Part shown: positions 15,557-63,412 of the stretch, piece after piece
Position numbering within the stretch: position 1 is the stretch's first letter
Layout of the letters: each line of letters starts with the position of its first letter
Assembly (NCBI RefSeq): GCF_030867095.1
Contig: NC_081832.1
Coordinates: 60,497,444-60,561,443 of the forward strand
DNA from: Alligator mississippiensis
Lineage: Eukaryota; Chordata; Crocodylia; Alligatoridae
DNA: 64,000 nucleotides
Direction of reading: 5' to 3'
Notes under the pieces: model-generated
What the model was told of the DNA's origin: nothing
The model's database searches: none
The model's input: the letters and a program-made list of their open reading frames with translations, nothing else
Translations under genes and position numbers: made by a program

Positions 15557-18387
15557 GCTCGCAGCTTCTCTGAGTCAGGGCAGTGCCTCCTCACAGCCTG
15601 CTCTGTGCCTACAGGCCCAGGCAGTGCCTCAGTCCTCATGAGGGCAATCTGGGCTGAGGGCCAGGGATGGACTGTGGGCCACTCACCCTGACCCCAGTGC
15701 CTGAGAACCAGGCCGTAGGGGCTGAGCTGACAAGGAGCACACCATGGTCAGGCAGGGCAAAAGTCACAGGTGCTATGACCCCAAGGGGGGGATGGAAGGA
15801 CAGGGACAGGAACTAATGGAGGTGACCAGCTGGTTGGGCACAGTCCTGGGGCAGCTGTTTGAGCAGCACTAGTGCTCTAGGACAGATGCAGCGTAGCTTG
15901 GCTTGACCCTAGTCCCAAGGCATCATGGCTGCATGCACCCTTTCAGGCTGTGAGGCATTGCTTTCCTCTTGGCAAGTCCAGCCCCTACCAGGAGGGCAGA
16001 GAAGCCCAGGGCTGAGTGCAGTCAGGCTTAGCTCAGCTTGCCCGCCATCCTGCACTCTCCCCCCACCCCAACCGCCCTCCACCATGGCTGCTTCTCACAC
16101 CAGGTCCCTGCCCTTCTTCCAGTGGCCAGGCCAAGGACCGTATGGGGGAAGCCAAGTTAGTTACCTAAAGGGCCTGGGCTCCAGGAGAACCTGGGACCCT
16201 TGTGGTCAGACACTCATGGCTCAGAAGGATGACCCAGCTCCAGCTTCCTGCTCCCACTGGCTGGAGATTGGGGTAGATGAGTCAGAAGAAAGGGCTGCAA
16301 CTATGTGGTGGGGTGCCATCACCTCCCAAAGTAGTAAATCCAGTTGTTCTAGTTTGATCCTGGGCGTGGAGGCAAAGGATGGCTTTTTCTCCACCCCCCC
16401 AGCCCACCCCTCCCCTCCTCATTACAGAGAGGAGTCAACACTGGAAGGTGGCGAGGGTTTCAGCCCCTTGGAGCCAGCAGGTCTGCAGCTCTTGTACCTG
16501 TTTCATAGGCACAAGGATCTGTGTGTGTTCGCTCCCAGCCCACTGTGTGCACCCAGCTTCCCTCCAGCTCTTGCAGGCTCATAGGGCATTGCCAGCTCCC
16601 CTAGTCCTGAGGTCTGGCACGCTCAGCTGATCCAGTCATCTGCCTCCCCCAGTGCCTCACAGCCCCGAACCCCAGGAATGCTGCAGTTCCAAGTCTGGGC
16701 TAGGAGGAGGAGGTTCCCCCCCTCCCCCGCCGTGGCCTGGGCCAGTCTTGATCTGCAGCACCACCTGCCCATCACATCTCTCCCTGGCTCTGGCCTAAAG
16801 CAAAGCAGCCTGCTCCTGGCCCCCAATGCGGGGCAGGCCTGCAGTACATCGGCTTGGGGACCTTTGAACACACACTTGCTTCCAAGTGTGACCATGTTTT
16901 GTTCTCCTGCCACTCCCACTGAGCTCCCTTAGCAGCGCAAGCCCCTTCTACAGACTGGGGCGCTAGAAGCCTCCACCTACCTAGAAGAGCTTCTCAGCTT
17001 ATGAGAGTCATAGTGGTTGAACAGCCCCTAATGGAATGGCTCTTGACTCATAAATAGGTCTGCCATGCAAAATGATCACCGTGTGTGCCAGGAGCTGAGA
17101 CTTGAACCTGCCGCGGGCGCTGTGCTGGAGATGGCAGAACCAGCAAAGGTAAGGGCCACCTGTAGGAAGAAAGATAGGAACCATCCTCATGGTTTTGTAA
17201 AAGCTCAGTTGTTTGGAGATGGCAGGCTAAGCTGCTGGTCACCCCTTGGGCCTCACCGTCCTTGCTTTGCCCACTGGGGTGCCAGCTGCCAAGTTGCCCT
17301 CCTTTGCCTACTCTGCCATGGGACGCTGGGGCCCCCCCGGGGTTTCCCGGGCTTTGTGCAAGTGCAGATGTAGCCAGTAGGTGGCGCTTGTCGCCCAGTC
17401 TTTTTTACTGTGTCTCCTTTTCAGAGGAAGGAGCAGGGGCCATGCCCTGTGGTGGGAGTGCGGCGGTACCTGGGGCTGGGGCTGTGCAGGGGTTGCTGTG
17501 GGACACCTCAGCACAGGCTGCACACCCTGGTGGGGAGGGGGGGCTACAGTGCCCCTGCAGCGCCTGCCCCTCTGCCGCCTAATGCTGTAACCCACACAGC
17601 TGAGATGGGCCGCAGGGCAGGGGCAGTGCACAACTGGCCACCATTCCTCCCTCAGGGTGACACCAAGCAGTGCCTCAGGCATCTGGGTCAGGACCCTGCT
17701 CATTTCTGTTATGATTGCACCTCGATACAAACTGTGCTAGGAGCTATATGAACATGCATCAACTGCTACTGTGCCCCGAAGGCCACGGTCCCAGGGGTGC
17801 TCGTGGCCCAGCTGCTGCTTGGAGGCTCGCTGCAGAGTGTGGGTGCCACACCTTGCCGGTGTACAATGTGGTGCCATTGCTGATGCCAAGGCCTGACCCT
17901 TTCACCTGCCGACCAGCATGAAGAAACAGCCCAGCGCAACTTGAGTCAAGAGCCCAGGTCTTTATTTATACAGCTGTGGCCAAGTAACACACAGGGCAGC
18001 AAGACGGATGTCACCACCCACCCATCACTCAGCCCCTCGGGGAGGGCAATGCATTGTATGGAAGAAGTGGTGAGCCAGTACCAAAGGAGCGGTCTGGCCC
18101 TGCCTGTGACCTCCCAGAGTGCGTGGTACTGCAGTGAGCTGCGAATGCAGAAGCTGTTGTACTCAGTTGGGTGCAGAGGTCCCTTTGGTCTGGAGGAGCT
18201 GTGGTGTATAGGACATGGGCTCCGCCTGCCCTCCCTCAGTCCAAGGGGTGACAGGGGAACTGTCAGGGCAGGGGGCTCTGGTATTCCAGCCTTCATCCCA
18301 CTCAGCCCAGCTAATCCTTGAAGTGATTCTGGACCTTGCTCTCCAATTCCCCTGATGGTCCAAGGAGCAGGCCTTTTCCAGCTGCTG
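15557..18387. other. Intergenic, downstream of miR-145
   Basis: No gene recognised. A 219-codon open frame at 15925-16584 on the + strand shows no family resemblance. A stretch around 17700-17770 (CTGTGCTAGGAGCTATATGAAC) resembles the tail block of L2/MIR-type repeats. The microRNA host transcript may extend into the right part of this interval. Confidence 0.5.
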
Positions 18388-18475
18388 AGCCACGGCCCCA
18401 AGAACAGTATTTCCAGGAATCCCCAACACAGTGCCCAAGGGATTCCTGGGAAAACTGGACCCTGAGGACACAGCA
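18388..18475 (-). ncRNA. MIR145: microRNA precursor mir-145
   Basis: On the - strand the 5p arm (18460 down to 18438, 23 nt, seed UCCAGUU) and the 3p arm (18422 down to 18401, 22 nt) match human miR-145-5p and miR-145-3p without difference. The stated bounds correspond to the 88-base human precursor, and the aligned length is the same. The flanks (GTCCTCAGG before 5p, TGGGGCCGTGG after 3p) resemble the human ends, while the terminal loop is clearly different in sequence. miR-145 is the main smooth-muscle differentiation microRNA in mammals and is co-transcribed with miR-143. It is the downstream member here because transcription runs leftward. Confidence 0.97.
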
Positions 18476-19204
18476 AGGAGAGGACCTTCTGCTTCCACCT
18501 TCCTCCCTATCTTTGAGCCTTCATTAGCCAAGCACAGCTTCACCTGTTGTCAACATGGGATGCCGTTCCCAGAGGCAGAGTGCAGTGCTTTGGGCACCTT
18601 ACCCCAGCAAAGTGCCTCCTGAAGGGGTGTACAGTGCCTATCCCACTCAGCCTGCCTGCTCCCATCATTCTCTAACCAGATCATCTGTTCCTACCCCCCT
18701 CGCCCTTCCCCTGGGTGGGCTGAATCCATTTCTGTATGGCCTGTGCCCAGAGGGAGCTTTGGGCCTGTGCCATCAGCCCCTAGATATGTTCCACTCCAGC
18801 CACAGGCCTTGAGTTTTGCCTTGCACAGACACCTCCGTGAGTACGGCTCCTTGAAACCTGGCCCTCAGATTCAGCAGGAGAACTGGTGCAGAGACCCAGC
18901 AGAGAAGGCAACGGCAACCTGAAGGGATGCCTCCTAGATGTTCATATCCATGAAAATCCTTCCTCAGCCCTGTCCTGTAGCAACCACAGTACCATCCTGA
19001 GTCCTGCGTAAGGACTGGGCTTGGTGCTAGTGAGCTTGTGAGTCTTGTGTGGCCCCAGCTCACCTGATCCTGCTCTTCATGTCTGAGCCAACTAGTGCCT
19101 CGTCCTCCTTATTGCTGGTCAGGTCAAGCTTCTTCCTGGAGCAGGAGGTCCCATGGCCAGGGAGCCCGCAGGCCTGCTGGGCTGACACGTCTCTCAGCTG
19201 CACA
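18476..19204 (-). other. Spacer between miR-145 and miR-143
   Basis: About 730 bases separate the two hairpins. The human gap is about 1.6 kb (from memory), so the cluster is tighter here. No other hairpin or repeat was recognised. The spacer is expected to be part of the common primary transcript. Confidence 0.7.
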
Positions 19205-19289
19205 GTTCCTCCCTTCCCGAGCTACAGTGCTTCATCTCAGACTCACAACTGACCAGAGATGCAGCACTGCACCTTGGGCTGGGAGACAT
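19205..19289 (-). ncRNA. MIR143: microRNA precursor mir-143
   Basis: Read on the - strand, this is a classical microRNA hairpin. The 5p arm occupies 19273 down to 19252 and the 3p arm 19239 down to 19219. Both agree base for base with human miR-143-5p (22 nt) and miR-143-3p (21 nt, seed GAGAUGA) as I know them. The loop (CAGTTGTGAGTC) differs from human by about one base, and the lower stem is closed by TCTCCC pairing with GGGAGG, as in human. The precursor ends are set by this stem and are approximate. In mammals miR-143 and miR-145 come from one smooth-muscle transcript and target regulators of contractile differentiation. Here miR-143 lies about 0.73 kb upstream of miR-145 on the same strand, the expected order. 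It is also about 40 kb from divergently oriented IL17B, as in human 5q32. Confidence 0.97.
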
Positions 19290-19460
19290 TGAAGAGCTCT
19301 GTCTGTATCCATCTGGTGCGCAGGCAGAGGGTATGCAGGGAAGAAGAAACACCAGGCAGGGGAACTGGCTGGACACAGGGGCAAAAAGCTCAGACTGCAG
19401 GGGACTTCTGGCTCCCAAGGAGCATGGCTGAGACCATTCCACCATGTGCTTGTCAGCTGT

Positions 19461-19560
19461 GTGTGCGCGCATGTGCATGTACATGTATGTGTGTGTGTGC
19501 TCACATCTCAGTGCATATGTGTGTGTGTGCACATGTGCATGTATGTGTATGCACATGCAC
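19461..19560. repeat. GT-rich simple sequence
   Basis: Degenerate TGTGTG/CATGTGCATG repeats run for about 100 bases, only about 170 bases upstream of the miR-143 hairpin on its strand. Confidence 0.8.
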
Positions 19561-21412
19561 CTAGCTAGATTACAGACAGAATAGGATGTCCCAGCCCCCT
19601 CTTGACAACACTGACAGCAGAGGCAACTCCTTTCAGAAGTGGAAAGCAAAGGGGTTATGTCGGAGGACAGAGCTACACCAGGCTCTCCTGAGCAGTGATG
19701 AGCAGGGAACAAGCTGCTTTGTCTAGGAATGTTCCCCCCTCCAGCCTCTCCCCAGCCTCATCCCAGTGTGGGCAGTGGGGGGGAAGCTTAGTCAGTGCTG
19801 CATGGTTACACCTGCAGATGTGCTTTGGCAGACAGCTGGGCTTGGTGCTTTACTTTCAGAGCTCACAAGAGCCAAGGTCTCACCATGGTTTTACATGAGG
19901 AGATGAGGCAGACAGAGCTTTGCCATCACTTCTTGCAGTGTGAACCTGGGGCATCCAGATGGATGACAGCTCTGGAGATGGACTCTAGTGACCCAAGGTG
20001 TCATTTGAAGGTTACCACTCAGAGTCATGTGTCTACCCCAGTTGTTCCCTCTCCAAGCCCAGGCTATCTGATCGTCCTGACCTTGCAGTGGCCTTGGAGA
20101 GGGGCCTGAGTCCACTTCCCTGTGGAGGGATCTCTGCGGTTGGCACAGCTGGTAGGACAAGATATAAATGAGCTATAACTAGTGCCACACTTCACCCCTT
20201 AGCCTTTGGAGCTCCAAGGAAAATCATTACTGGCTTCTAGTTAAAAAATAACCACCACAGGCTTCATCCCAGGGAACCGTGGGACCCAGATACCATAGCG
20301 ATATGAGAACACATGATTGATGGATGGCTAGATAGATAAATAAGGATGATGTCATGGGAGGTGGAGGAGAGGGGAGAGAGCAAACAGGCCTGGGTGACGT
20401 CCTTCTGGGCTCCTTCCTTCCCTTTTATGGCAGGAACTCATCTCTCTGAAACTGAGCTGGTGTGGCAGCTCCCCTGGGCTGCCTCCTGCCTGGCACAAGC
20501 CTGCAGATGGCTGGGTGGCCCCCGGCGTGGGGAGGACAGGGCTGTGGAGAGCAGTGTTGTGGTTTCCACTGGAAAGAAGCCCATCAATCAGTCCCTCTGA
20601 GGCAGACAAAGAACAGGGCAGGCCCCCGAGCTCGGCCTAGAGGGCTGTAGTGTGTTTGTGGGGACAGCTGATCCCCAGATTAAGGCTCTGTATGACATTT
20701 GTCAAAGCACAGGGTGCAGCGAGGTTTATGCAGGTTACAGACTGAGACACCAAGCTGGGCCTCCCCACTCCCCAACCTGAGCCTGCCGAGGTCCGGGGAG
20801 GGATCAGCCCTACTAAAAATGAGCAGCAGGGGAGACGGACAGGACTGGTAGGACTCCTGGATTTGGAGCAAGGGGAGTGGCCGGGGCTGGCACCTGGGAA
20901 GTAGTGAGATGCTGAGAGCTCAAGGAAGGTGCTAGCTAGCAGGCCAACCCTGGTGACCCACACAAGCCAGTCTGCTCTGGATCCTGCAGCCATCCTACCA
21001 GGGCTTGCAGTGAGATGGCTGAAGGCGCAGACATAGGGAGCAGGCCTTGGGGTCTCATCTTGACAGGTTAGAGCATTGGGAGACACCCAATGCTGTGAGA
21101 GCAAATGCAATGCAGCCCTGACCATGCAGGCAAGTGGGGAAAGGCTCAGGCACACAAAGAGTTAAGGGAAGTTAAAACAGCCTCTCTCATCCTCTCCCTG
21201 AAGGAAACAGCAGCACCTCTGTCACCCATGGGAATGCAGCTTGGGGCCCCAGTTCTAACTTTATCCCCAGGCTCCCTGAGAGGACATGCCATCCAAAACT
21301 TGTGCACTTGAGGGCAGGACCAGCCCAGGGTACATTGATGTGTAGAGCAAGGCCATAGATGGTAGCAACAGTGAGCACATAGTGGGGAAGAGGGAGGAGG
21401 GGAAGTGAACAA

Positions 21413-21428
21413 GGGGGGGGGGGGGGGG
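21413..21428. repeat. G homopolymer, 16 bases
   Basis: Sixteen consecutive G residues, the longest such run in the window. It may form a quadruplex and may be imprecise in assembly. Confidence 0.85.
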
Positions 21429-22679
21429 AAGGGAGACCAAATCCAGCAAAGTTTTTGCAGACAAGCACTAACATCCTGTGCAATCCTGTGCAGGGTAAAC
21501 AGAACATCCATCATTACAACATCCTCACGCTGGGATCCAGCCACCTCCGCCAGCCGGCAGCTAGGAACAGGCACTCAGAACAGCCTGACAAGAAGCAGAT
21601 GGCAGCTTTCTGGGCTGGCGTCCCTTCCATCCGGCACCCTGGAAGCCTCCCTCTCCCCTATGCTCCATACACAACAGTTGCTTCCCAGCTTCAAATCCAC
21701 AGGGAAGGAACATACCTCCACAGGCAAAATGCAAGCCAGGGTGTAACAGTGGTTGAGTTCTGCAGCTCACCCCATGCTTCCAACCAACCCATGCTGCTGT
21801 GTCTTTCAGGGGAAGGAAGAAAAGCAAAATCACACCCAGGCTAGTGCAAAGTTGGAAGGACACCCTACAAACAGGTTTTCCCAGCCTTCACCATCAATCA
21901 GTAGGCAGCATTCAACAGAGCCCACAGCAGTCAACAGAGCAAGCATGGATGAGCCCTGCATTGAAAGCAACCACCATTTTGAACATTGGAGATCCTCACA
22001 CAACTAGCGAAACTCACCTTTCCCAACACCTTAACCCCATCCTAGCTGGCAACATCACAGACTTTGCCTCTGGTGTCTCTGAAGTCACCAGGCAGAGCAG
22101 ACCAGACTGACTTACCTACATCAGCTCCTTCAGCCTCAGCCTTGGCATGGCTTGAACAAGTCACTCAAAAGAGGAGGCTTTTCGAACCATTTCCAACGTT
22201 ATCTCCAAGCCCAGAAACAGCTAGGCAAACAAGCAGCATGCTGAGGCCAAGTTTGGAAAGGAGCTGCAATGAGTCAGAGACAGGCAGAACAACTGCTGTG
22301 ATCTAAGCAATTCCTACCGGAGAGGAGCAAGAGGAAATCAAGGAGGAGACTCTACCAAGGCTCTGGTATCTCTGACATCTATGCAGCTAGGCTTCCAATT
22401 GTTCATGCCACAGTCCTCTTTCCCTTGGGAGGCAGGGAGAACAGCTGATGCAGAGGGATCCCCTGGGTCTCCTACCCCCAGGTACTCCATCAGGTCCCAG
22501 CTCTGCTATCATATGCACCTCTTCCAGGCCAGACTTTAGACTCAGACCATCTGAGACTCCCAGCAAACCTTCACCATATGCTATGATATGCTATGATACA
22601 AGCCTAGTCAGTGCTGGGGTGGGGGATGCAGCCCCCATCTGCTGTGCAGTAGGGAAACAAATTTACTCAGAACATGAGC

Positions 22680-26394: not shown

Positions 26395-26584
26395 TGCTGC
26401 AGTGTCTTGTACATAAGCGTCCCACGTTTCAAAATGGTGGTGGTGGCCCTTTGACTAAAGCCATTGAACAAGGTTTAGTTAAAGTGCCCCCACTGCCATT
26501 TTGAAACGCAGGATGCTGAATACACTAGACGCTGCAGGCATTTTAATTAGAGCAGCTCCTGAGAGCCACTCTAATTAAAATGCC
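26395..26584. mobile_element. Foldback/MITE-like element with two nested hairpins
   Basis: The left arm (about 26395-26462, TGCTGCAGTGTCTTGT ... CGTTTCAAAATGG ... TTTGACTAAAGCC) is the imperfect reverse complement of the right arm (about 26472-26538, GGTTTAGTTAAAG ... CCATTTTGAAACGC ... GACGCTGCAGG), with about 9 bases between them. Directly after it, GGCATTTTAATTAGAG (26537-26552) pairs perfectly with CTCTAATTAAAATGCC (26569-26584). No transposase frame is present. Crocodilians are known to carry MITEs such as Chompy, but I cannot assign this copy to a family. Confidence 0.65.
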
Positions 26585-26700
26585 CCCTATCCATCCTGGG
26601 GCACATGCATAGGCCCCCAAAGAGACAGTAGGAACTGTGCTTCCACCATGCTCCAATGCCCAGAGGATGCTCAAAGTCCAGCGAGCAGGAAAGCCTCCCA

Positions 26701-28997: not shown

Positions 28998-29064
28998 CTA
29001 TAAATAGCTCTGCCTTTCCTTTCCCATCCTCGATGGGGTCTGAGAAATGCCTGCCCTTTTATGG
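28998..29064 (-). promoter_or_regulatory. CArG box plus MEF2/TATA-like box, candidate proximal SRF-responsive promoter or enhancer
   Basis: CCTTTTATGG at 29055-29064 is a perfect CArG box (CC, six A/T, GG), the binding site of SRF. It is the only perfect match I found between 18 and 62 kb. About 48 bases away, CTATAAATAG at 28998-29007 fits the MEF2 consensus and, read on the - strand as CTATTTATAG, can act as a TATA box. On the - strand the CArG lies upstream of the TATA-like box, the usual layout of muscle promoters. The pair is about 9.7 kb upstream of miR-143. Mammalian miR-143/145 is known to be SRF/myocardin dependent; its use here is inference. Confidence 0.5.
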
Positions 29065-34530: not shown

Positions 34531-34548
34531 GCACCCATATGTCAGCAT

Positions 34549-35015
34549 ATCATAGATTTCATAGACATTAGGGCTGGAAAGGACCTCGGAATATCATCGA
34601 GTCCAGCCCCCTGCCCCAGGGGCAGGAAGTCAGCTGGGGTCATAGGATCCTAGCAAGATAAACATCCAATTTTCTCTTGAAGGCGTTCGGAGTAGGTGCT
34701 TGAACCACCTCTGACGGCAGGCTATTCCAGACCTTGGGGGCTTGGACAGTAAAGAAATTCTTCCTTATGTCCAGCCTGAAACGGTCTTGCAGGAGTTTAT
34801 AACTGTTTGACCTTGTCATCCCTTGGGGTGCTCTGGTGAACAATCGTTCCCCCAGATCCTGGTAAACACCCCTGATAAACTTATAGGTAGCCATCAGATT
34901 GCCCCTAAGCCTGTGCTTTTCCAGGCTGAAGAGTCCCATGGCTCTCAGTCTATCATCGTAAGGTCTGCATCCAGGCAGACACACGGCTCTCATTGCTCTT
35001 AGGCCCCACAGAAAT
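34549..35015 (-). mobile_element. CR1 LINE, 5'-truncated, with the C-terminal reverse-transcriptase coding part
   Basis: On the - strand an uninterrupted frame (34993-34640, 117 codons) encodes the end of the CR1 ORF2 protein. It includes RPYDDRLRAMGLFSLEKHRLRG, GNLMATYKFIRG, LDIRKNFFTVQAPKVWNSLP and a final FKRKLDVYL. It is followed by the CR1 3' UTR (GGGGCTGGACTCGATGATAT-like block) and the tail of repeated ATGATTCTATGAAATC type. The frame is open through the remaining part, so the copy is relatively young compared with the other CR1 pieces here. It is 5' truncated, as usual, and not autonomous. Confidence 0.95.
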
Positions 35016-36249
35016 GTCCTGCCCCATCCTCATATGCAGTGAAGGCATTCACAGCCAAGGTATTCATATTTTCCAATAAAAAATCCTGCTTTTTCCATCC
35101 AGTTACAGCTGGACCCATCTGGCAGGACTGCTTCCTCCATCTGTACATAAGGGGGTGGCTGTGAAGTGCCTTGCTGGCATGGTCAGCAGCACAAAACGCC
35201 CTTTCCCCCCATCCCCAGGCAATTAGGGCTCACCCCATACTCCATTTTTCCAGAAGCGGGTACTGGCTCCATCCCAGCCTGCTGGACTTCAGCCCTGCTG
35301 TAACTTTAGCTCCATCTGCTATGAGATGGCAAGCTACTGAGCTGAGATTCCTGGCCCTGCCCAGCTCTGTTAGTGGGTAGTCTGAGGGGTCGGGAAGGAA
35401 AGTCAAGGCTCTTCTTTTTTCTAAGCAGGCTCAGTCACCCGCTTCCTTTCATGTGGATGCTTGTGATCTCCCTTGAGCTGTTTGACAGAGAATGGTCCCT
35501 GTCCTGCCTTGGCTTTACCTAGGAGGTCTTTTTCATTCCTCTCTCTAGTGGCAGCTTTACTAGCTCCTCCAGCTGCCCACCCCTGCACAGGGATAAAGAG
35601 CTGTGGAGCTGATGGAGTACCGGAGCAAATGCATTTGCCAAGGGACTAGCGAGATGGGTAGGGGTTCCCTACTCAGCCCTGGAAGCTTTCAGGTGTGCAA
35701 GCCACCTTCTTGTGGCTTGGGAGAAGCCCGTTGTGCAGGAGACCTCAGGCTGGCATGGCAGATATCAGCACCTCCAGGCCATGGCAAACTCCTTTCCCTA
35801 CCCCTGCTGCTCCAAGGAAACACTGACCTTTATGGAGCATCCTCTTTGGGCCCATCAGGAGCTTTTCAGATATAAGCAGTGGCAGAAGAAGAGAGAGCTG
35901 AAGCATGTGGTGAGGGCAGGTAGCCAGTGGGCAGAGCTTCTCACCACTGGGGCCAATGGTTTCTCTGAACAAAGATACAACCCCAGATGAATGTCCATCC
36001 CCCATCACAGCAGCTGGCTGCCACAAGACCCTTGCATGGGGTGCGCATTTGTCCTGCAAAAGCCCTAGTGTAGGTCAGCTCTGTTTCCCCTCTCTCCTCA
36101 GTCATGCAATGAGGGACTCAGTCATGGTTGTGCTTGGTGGAACAGACCCAGACCCAAAGGGGACATAATCCCACATTAACCCACCATCTCCAAACAGTAT
36201 CTCCTTCCATTCACTCGTAGCCAGAGAGAACTCCTACACACAAACCGTT

Positions 36250-59933: not shown

Positions 59934-62900
59934 GTAGGTGCCTGGGCTGCTTACTCTGGGGGCTTTTATTATTTACTCTGTATACTGGCAACCAGTTGGG
60001 TTTGTTTGCTTTGGAGCTTGCCTGCCCAAGTTACTATTCCCCTAGCCCACCTGGGACAGACCAGCCATGGCCCTGGGGATGAGCAAGAGAGGAATGGCTT
60101 GTGCTTCAGAGACCTGCTTCCCTCCCCACCGTGCCCCATAATAGGGATCCTTTCACCTAGCACTGAAAGGCAGCTGCCTCTGGGGTGGGGCCCGACCGGA
60201 CGGCACACAGCACTGCTTCACAAGACTGCAGGGTAAGCAGCATGATCCCCGTAGCTAACGGCAGCCAGAACAGTAGGGACCACCACTACGAACAATTTTT
60301 ACTGCGAGGAAGCCAGCCTGGCCTGTCAGGAGGCGGAGAAGATGCTCCTGAAGGGAGACAGTGGGGTGGACACTGCCAGCAGCCCCAGAGCCCTGAGCTG
60401 TAGCTGGAGGGTAGAGGTGGATGGCTAAGGAGCTCAGCACTGGGGCACGCTAGACAGAAGAGAGAGCACTCTGGGCATGGAGCGTGCCACAGACAGGGCT
60501 GGTACCTCTGTGACCCAGCTCCCAGGGGCTCTGGCCACTGCCTGGCAGCCCCTCTGCCACTGGAGGGAACAGGCAAAAGAAGGCATTTGTCCATCTCCTC
60601 AGCATGAGGGGCAGCTTCAGGGAACATTTACATTGTTTTATATTTCTGCCCCTTGCCCCAGAAGGTCCCTGTGCTCTGTATGCTCCATACTTGTACGGAT
60701 TCCCTTCGCCCACATTTCAGAGACAGTGGCATCCCCAGACAAACAGGCCACCCCACAGAGCCCAAGAGGGAGTGGGGAGGGAAAGGGCATATCAGTCATA
60801 GCAGAAACCCTGCTTTTATGATGGCTCTCACATCCACACGTCATACATGCGTGTCGTCCTTATTCCTCCCTCGCATGTCCTCCCCATAAAACGGCACCCA
60901 GATCACCTTCCCTGGGAGAGGGGAGGGGTCAACCATCCTCAGCAGGAAGGCATGCCACTGTCTTCTTGGCTCCAGAGTCAAAGTAGCTCAGTGAGGACCC
61001 TAGAGCTGCAGCCATCTCCTGGTCACACAGGGGGCTGACTCCCTTCCTCCCCTGCCCACCTGCACCTTTCATGAGGACAGGTGCAACTCTGAGAAATGCC
61101 CGGAGGATTCAAAGTGCAGATCTGCAAAGAGACCCCCTGTGGCACTAAACAGCCCCTTGAAGTCACCATGTGTTCAACCAGGACTTCCCATGGAGAACAG
61201 GAGATGCAGGGGCATGAAGGGTGTTACCTTCTGCATTTGCAGGCCCCTGTCAAAAGCTCTGTTCTAATTTATCTTGGGGGAAATCTTTCCAGCCTCACTG
61301 GGTGGCCAAGCCTCTGTAGAGTCTGTCCTTAGTTTCTGCACCAACTTCACTGGCAGCTGGGGCACTTGCCAAGAGCAGGCAATCAGCCTGTTCAGCTCAG
61401 GAAGGGCCATCAGCAAACTGGAGATGCTGCTAGTCGGATGCCCCACGCACCCTGCAGGGAGGGTGGGCGGTGGGGCTACCATCTGGCAAAAGAGGTCTAT
61501 AGCAACATTTCTCAACCCATGGGTCTTGACCCAAAAGATTGAAAGAATATATGAAAGGGTCGCACACGGACTTTAAAAATGGATCAACAAACTTTAAAAA
61601 TGGGTTCCTCCTTTAAAGGAGAAAAATGTGGGAAACTGGCTTTTCCCTTGCAGGCTGAGTTCCAGCCTGCAAGGGGCTGCTTGAGGCCCCCATGTCCCCC
61701 CTCCCCACACACTCTGCGAGGCAGCAGGTCAGGAGCGAGGGGCACTGGGTCAAGACTGGTCATCAATGTTTATAAATGGGTCCTGGTACAAAAAATAATG
61801 TTGAGAACTACTGGCCTACAGGACATACCGGCTCCAGGCTCCCCAGTTCCTCAGGGCCATTTCCAAAAAGGGCAACACTTTTTATTTTTTTTTTTTGCAT
61901 TGCATCCACCCACCCAGCTCAAAGCATGTTAGAAGGAGCGTCCAGATCACTACCCCTCAATTACAGAGAAAGGAACCAAAGAAAGAGAGATTCAGTATTT
62001 TAGGATCCCATAGCAAGACAGCCACACAATAGGGATCCCAGGAGCCCAGGCGCCATCTCCTGGCTCCTCTTGCTACAGCAGCCTGCCTCCCACCTGGAGG
62101 GTATGAGCCCTGCCAGGTAGAGCAATTCCTACCACTCAGCTACATGCAGCACTGTACCTAGTGTCCTGACAGCTCTGGGTGAACTTTTAGTATTGGGCCC
62201 CCCTTTGGCAGAGATAGTAATAATAATAATTATTATTATTATTATTATAAAATTACCATTTTCAGGCCTCCTTTCTGTCCAGACCCTAGATGGCCACCTG
62301 GTTTGCCCATACCTGTGTCCAGCTCTGACTACATGCAAGAATCCCCTCTCAGGCACCCACATCCCAGTAGAAGGGTGGATTAAGCATGGGTCAGCGCTGG
62401 GAAAGTTATACCCTGTCCCACCTTCCTTTGCAGCTTCTGCTCTGCGCTTTCTCCTTGACCTTCATGCCAGCTGCCTTCACAGAAGCAAAAGACCGAAGCA
62501 AAGCAGTCAAAGGAAGGAGAGGACAGGCTCGGGACAGGGTCCAGCTCCCGGGGGCCCAGACCTCCCCCCCAGGCCCCAGGCTGAAGGCAAATGCATTGGC
62601 CATGGATGATACATACACCATGGTGGAGGAATATGAGGAGAGCATTCAGGAGATGGTACGCCAGCTGAGGAACAGCTCGGAGCCCCCTGACACCAAGTGC
62701 CAGGTCAGCCTGGGACTCTGGAGTCCCAACAAGAGGAGTCTGTCTCCATGGGCCTACAGGTGAGGCTGCAGGGCAAAGCACCACTGAGATGGGTGCTCCC
62801 CAGCCCAGGTAAGGCCCTTCCGCGCACAGAGCAGGGCTCAAAGCTGACGGCAACCCCAGTTAGATAGTGTGTAACCCTACAGTGGGCACTAAGCCCACTT

Positions 62901-63412
62901 TACAAGCTGCTGCTCCATTGCCACAGGACCACATTCCTTCATGTGTGGCTGGTGCAGCACAGGCAGCCAGGCAGAGAGAGCTCCAGCAAGCCCCTTTCTC
63001 CATGAGGAGGCTTGCTCCTTGCATACCCAAGTCCTGGCTTGCAGTTTTTGTGGCACCCATACCCGTTTCCAAGGAGGAAAACCCTACCTATTCCCATGGG
63101 GCCTGCCCAGGCTGAGCGGTGTCCCTGCACCTACCTCCTCTGCTCCCTCTCTTCTTTCACAGCATAAATCACGATGCAATGCGGATTCCCATGGACATCC
63201 CAGAGGCGCAGTGCCTCTGTGTCGGCTGCATCAACCCTTTCACTATGCAAGAAGACCGCACCATGGCCAGCATCCCCATCTACAGCAGGCTGCCTGTCCG
63301 CCGCCTGCTATGCCAGCCAGGGGCCAAGGCCCCCAGGAAGAAGAAGGGTTGCCACAAGAAGTACAGGATGGTCATGGAGACCATCGCCGTGGGCTGCACC
63401 TGCATCTTCTGA
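59913..63412 (+). CDS. IL17B: Interleukin-17B, three coding exons (59913-59933, 62434-62759, 63163-63412)
   Basis: Secreted cytokine of the IL-17 cystine-knot family. Mammalian IL-17B forms a homodimer and signals through IL17RB. The spliced frame is 21+326+250 nt, encoding 198 residues (human: 180, from memory). Residues 1 to about 25 form a signal peptide (MDWTPSL then a leucine-rich core). A basic, proline-rich linker follows to about residue 65, then the block EEYEESIQEMVRQLRNSS with an N-glycosylation site at N87. The core holds eight cysteines at 96, 133, 135, 138, 166, 179, 194 and 196, with the blocks NKRSLSPWAYSINHD, CLCVGCINPFTMQEDR and METIAVGCTCIF almost as in human IL-17B. IL-17D and IL-17A/F fit much less well. 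Splice sites are canonical: CTG|gtaggt, ttgcag|CTT, ACAG|gtgagg, cacag|CATA. Two ATGs stand in tandem at 59910 and 59913. I chose the second because it has A at -3 and G at +4 and matches the human MDW start. The stretch between C166 and C194 is longer and more basic than in human. Confidence 0.96.
61503..61813. mobile_element. hAT-type (Charlie-like) DNA transposon relic in IL17B intron 1
   Basis: The 311-bp element starts CAACATTTCTCAACCCATGGG and ends AATGTTGAGAACTACTG (in reverse CAGTAGTTCTCAACATT). These are typical Charlie-type ends. The flanks GTCTATAG (61495-61502) and GCCTACAG (61814-61821) agree at 6 of 8 positions, both differences being transitions, a decayed 8-bp target duplication. 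The internal pair GACTTTAAAAATGG / AACTTTAAAAATGG is a short direct repeat. Confidence 0.82.
61940..62060 (-). repeat. MIR-like ancient SINE remnant in IL17B intron 1
   Basis: CAATTACAGAGAAAGGAACC, AAGAGAGATTCAGTA, CATAGCAAGACAGCC and GATCCCAGGAGCCCAGGCG follow the reversed MIR order. Divergence is high. Confidence 0.45.
62216..62250. repeat. (TAA)n/(TTA)n trinucleotide repeat
   Basis: TAATAATAATAAT passes directly into TATTATTATTATT, so the tract is a perfect small palindrome. It lies about 180 bases before IL17B exon 2. Confidence 0.9.
62434..62759 (+). CDS. IL17B: IL17B coding exon 2
   Basis: The exon follows the acceptor ccttcctttgcag and encodes the rest of the signal peptide (LLLCAFSLTF), the basic linker and the start of the IL-17 fold up to SPWAY. 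It ends in phase 2 (AG, completing Ser116 with the C of exon 3) before gtgagg. The N-glycosylation sequon NSS and the first framework cysteine (KCQV) lie here. The same exon boundary in the SPW(A/G)Y-S codon is found in other IL-17 genes. Confidence 0.95.
63163..63412 (+). CDS. IL17B: IL17B coding exon 3 with stop
   Basis: The exon follows the acceptor cttctttcacag after a 403-base intron. It encodes SINHDAMRIP through GCTCIF and the TGA stop at 63410-63412. Seven of the eight framework cysteines are here, including the CLCVGC and GCTC motifs of the cystine-knot fold. Relative to human IL-17B there are extra basic residues around KAPRKKKGCHKKYRM. They remain in frame and keep a cysteine at the place expected for the human PC residue. 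Confidence 0.96.

Follow-up and report, generated by a model that had tools for sequence, protein, structure and literature searches.

We found that a 64,000-nt window of the Alligator mississippiensis genome, by which we mean the whole stretch of DNA analysed, contains the mir-143 and mir-145 hairpins on the minus strand and two exons of IL17B on the plus strand (Table 1). When the whole window was searched with the Rfam 15 covariance models at their gathering cut-offs, these two hairpins alone exceeded the threshold, with mir-143 scoring 108.4 bits against a cut-off of 60 bits and mir-145 scoring 97.4 bits against a cut-off of 50 bits. Both are thereby assigned to their families, at the place and on the strand where the original prediction had set a miR-143/145 cluster (18388-19289, read leftward). 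In the direction of reading mir-143 comes first and mir-145 follows 730 bp later on the same strand. The minus-strand hairpins are also stable folds, as none of 200 shuffles was as stable for mir-143 (0/200) and none for mir-145 (0/200). A CNNC motif downstream of the 3p arm aids Drosha; such motifs start 19 nt past the 3p arm of mir-143, whereas mir-145 has one at 17 nt past its 3p arm and further ones at 14 and 31 nt.

Table 1. Features of the miR-143/145 locus, in window positions
Feature	Position	Strand	Remarks
pre-mir-145 hairpin (Rfam RF00675)	18389-18474	minus	97.4 bits, E 1.9e-21, fold z -4.0
miR-145-3p arm	18401-18422	minus	identical to human letters
miR-145-5p arm	18438-18460	minus	identical to human letters
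spacer between Rfam hairpins	18475-19204	minus	730 bp
pre-mir-143 hairpin (Rfam RF00683)	19205-19288	minus	108.4 bits, E 1.8e-26, fold z -6.4
miR-143-3p arm	19219-19239	minus	identical to human letters
miR-143-5p arm	19252-19273	minus	identical to human letters
CArG box CCATAAAAGG, candidate SRF site	20421-20430	minus	1.13 kb upstream of mir-143
MEF2-type site CTATAAATAG	28998-29007	minus	
CArG box CCATAAAAGG	29055-29064	minus	
IL17B exon 2	~62434-62759	plus	start read from acceptor site, approximate
IL17B exon 3 with stop codon	~63163-63412	plus	

Upon comparing the hairpins with the Rfam consensus, we observe that 0 of 88 arm positions differ, versus 20 of the 82 hairpin positions outside the arms (Fisher p 1.2e-7, with positions taken as independent). 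Each of the four mature arms occurs once within the window, on the minus strand, and all four (4/4) are exact to the human letters that served as the reference. The changes are unevenly spread, with 7 of 15 positions unlike the consensus in the miR-145 loop and 12 of 55 in the hairpin flanks, while the miR-143 loop is nearly unchanged (1 of 12). The human precursors likewise have a miR-145 loop and hairpin flanks unlike those in the window. It had been proposed that the four arms show no difference from human and that the miR-145 loop has changed, and both statements hold at this level of comparison. Mature sequences and seeds of miR-143/145 are described as conserved in vertebrates, and the invariance of the arms here is expected from that published conservation (PMC8306979). 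The precursor comparison in that source covers 30 species for mir-143 and 25 for miR-145 and speaks of mammals, amphibians and teleosts, reptiles being unnamed in its account (PMC8306979).

Because hairpins are palindromic in form, matches and folds on the opposite strand are expected, and on the plus strand there are indeed weak matches to the two families (49.4 and 42.1 bits, below cut-off) as well as folds (z -6.1 and -3.1). These values could be taken to mean that antisense microRNAs are made from the plus strand of the hairpins, alongside or in place of those from the minus strand. But the minus strand scores about twice the plus strand for both families, holds the exact arm letters, and is oriented with respect to IL17B and CSNK1A1 as the human cluster is, so that we regard plus-strand microRNAs as extremely improbable and retain the leftward reading. 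At a permissive Rfam threshold the window gave 21 matches, comprising the 2 hairpins, their 2 antisense shadows and 17 others; the latter were rejected as further RNA families, all being below cut-off. Seven of them are weak miRNA-family matches within a CA/TG-rich stretch at 19452-19575, approximately 165 bp upstream of mir-143, where Tandem Repeats Finder, run over 17000-22000, listed no tandem array (0 rows).

Across the assembly of 2,346,462,532 bases (2.35 Gb), we observe a single locus over the cut-off for each family, which is the window locus. Scoring was applied to the best 55 of 567,931 and the best 54 of 296,834 first-look candidates, among which the only other match was the antisense strand of the same locus; a badly decayed copy might escape, since the best candidates alone were scored. 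A second, better conserved cluster elsewhere in the genome had been named beforehand as evidence that would speak against the assignment, and none was found among these best-scored candidates. Single-copy status is also described for miR-145 in zebrafish, human and other vertebrates (PMC8306979). According to the same source, human and zebrafish both have the miR-143/145 cluster inside a lncRNA, which in zebrafish is BX088707.3, where the two microRNAs are clustered, miR-145 is single copy and synteny is partly common with human (PMC8306979). The spacer, whose sequence the original prediction held to have changed freely, was compared by its length, which is 730 bp in the Alligator window versus approximately 1.3 kb as reported for the human cluster (PMC2903500).

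When examining the neighbouring genes, we find that IL17B exons 2 and 3 are bordered by AG/GT splice sites and that their joined product matches the Pfam IL17 family (E 1.8e-27), with 25 PDB matches that are IL-17A, IL-17F and IL-25 chains. Against the human IL17B sequence, 93 of 151 aligned residues are identical, in agreement with the divergent IL17B that the original prediction had placed nearby. Beyond IL17B, all on the minus strand, lie PCYOX1L (Pfam Prenylcys_lyase, 4.4e-84; pieces within contig positions 60565337-60567757), GRPEL2 (3 pieces, the best 71% identical over 118 aa to the human sequence) and AFAP1L1, whose PH-domain exons (Pfam PH; within contig positions 60596800-60601976) are near the AFAP1L family and have one solved-structure match, 2cof (KIAA1914; 5.1e-14). 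The choice of PCYOX1L over PCYOX1, and of AFAP1L1 over its paralogs, was made by position. On the mir-145 side, CSNK1A1 is found on the plus strand as 7 pieces with 76-100% identity to the human sequence, within contig positions 60457444-60473243. The resulting order of AFAP1L1, GRPEL2, PCYOX1L, IL17B, the miR-143/145 cluster and CSNK1A1 is that of human 5q32 mirrored, with orientations agreeing. The human MIR143-MIR145 pair in CARMN (MIR143HG) at 5q32 has in common with the window both hairpins, their order and their strand relative to IL17B and CSNK1A1, as well as the exact mature arms. The claim that this locus is the counterpart of human 5q32 had been based on the cluster together with IL17B. 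Orthology is now supported by conserved neighbours on both sides of the cluster, since AFAP1L1, GRPEL2, PCYOX1L and CSNK1A1 add to the evidence from IL17B. A published figure legend names PCYOX1L, IL17B and CSNK1A1 as neighbours of the human cluster and writes 5q33 (PMC2903500). It is conceivable in principle that the cluster here is a silent or duplicated copy and that the working one lies elsewhere, but the arms are intact and the hairpins fold well, each family has one locus among the best-scored genome candidates, and the ancestral gene neighbourhood surrounds the cluster, all of which leaves this alternative with next to no likelihood in our view.

Upstream of the orthologous cluster, the second CArG box of Table 1 stands 47 bp from the MEF2-type site, and this pair (28998-29064), 9.8 kb upstream of mir-143, is a possible host-gene promoter or enhancer. 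The number of CArG boxes in the window is not significant, as 7 were found versus 4.0 expected, a count also reached in 9 of 100 shuffles. Of the exact form CCATAAAAGG there are 3 copies versus 0.10 expected, an excess that is overstated because this form was chosen after the first list of CArG boxes; the flanks of the three copies look unrelated by eye. MEF2-type sites number 2 versus 0.23 expected, and random placement brings a CArG box to 60 bp or less from a MEF2 site in 2.6% of cases, by a criterion chosen after the fact. In the literature, the CArG box of the mammalian cluster is located in a distal promoter (PMC4720888), and mouse Carmn is reported to have regulatory regions that contain SRF motifs as well as MEF2 motifs (PMC12795861). 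The match of the upstream CArG and MEF2 sites to mammalian SRF control is suggestive only. As to base composition, CpG observed/expected across the window (1-64000) is 0.18 at approximately 54% G+C, and there is no CpG-island-like kilobase, since across 64 steps of one kilobase the ratio peaks at 0.38.

A LINE fragment, presumably CR1-like, lies at 34543-34964 and shares 91% identity across 422 bp with another copy, in locus L008; the open piece at 34640-35029 had no match in Pfam. Additionally, a near-perfect hairpin of 144 nt is found at 26397-26540, 7.1 kb upstream of mir-143, and next after it stands a second short palindrome (26536-26586). As RNA, the longer hairpin folds at -83.3 kcal/mol on the plus strand (z -13.3) and at -72.5 kcal/mol on the minus strand (z -10.3). 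Human CARMN starts approximately 24 kb before mir-145 by published coordinates (PMC8306979), and at 7.1 kb upstream the Alligator hairpin thus probably falls within the cluster's primary transcript. Two 13-base pieces of it had no exact copy in 13 fetched loci, and the literature searched for the name of a crocodilian MITE listed nothing relevant. We consider it probably a palindromic transposon remnant; that it gives rise instead to a third, lineage-specific small RNA of the host gene appears very unlikely.

At the cluster itself, the hairpins, the exact arms, the strand, the single locus for each family and the conserved gene neighbourhood are directly seen, and it is almost certain, in our assessment, that the cluster is the ortholog of vertebrate miR-143/145, which would be carried on one leftward CARMN/MIR143HG-type transcript with a probable smooth-muscle role and predicted SRF/myocardin-driven expression. 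In mammals the two microRNAs are described as a bicistronic transcript with MIR143HG/CARMN as host gene, under SRF/myocardin control through a CArG box (PMC6395947), and miR-145 is reported to act by way of KLF4 and KLF5 in favouring the contractile state (PMC3596552). For the window cluster we infer the same arrangement from other species, from the shared transcript and its processing to the targets and the regulation by SRF. Transcription would be driven by SRF/myocardin via the upstream CArG boxes, yielding one leftward primary transcript, the putative counterpart of the CARMN/MIR143HG lncRNA, that bears both hairpins; Drosha and Dicer would then excise miR-143 and miR-145, which may repress factors such as KLF4 and KLF5 and so maintain the contractile state in smooth muscle.

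No open question is settled by this locus, since the conservation of both microRNAs across vertebrates, among them mammals, amphibians and teleosts, is already published (PMC8306979). It is an ordinary version of a well-known smooth-muscle microRNA gene pair, of an already known kind. Its surrounding 5q32 gene block stands in human order, and for the biology of smooth-muscle microRNAs in the Alligator mississippiensis genome the cluster is a clean orthologous reference point.
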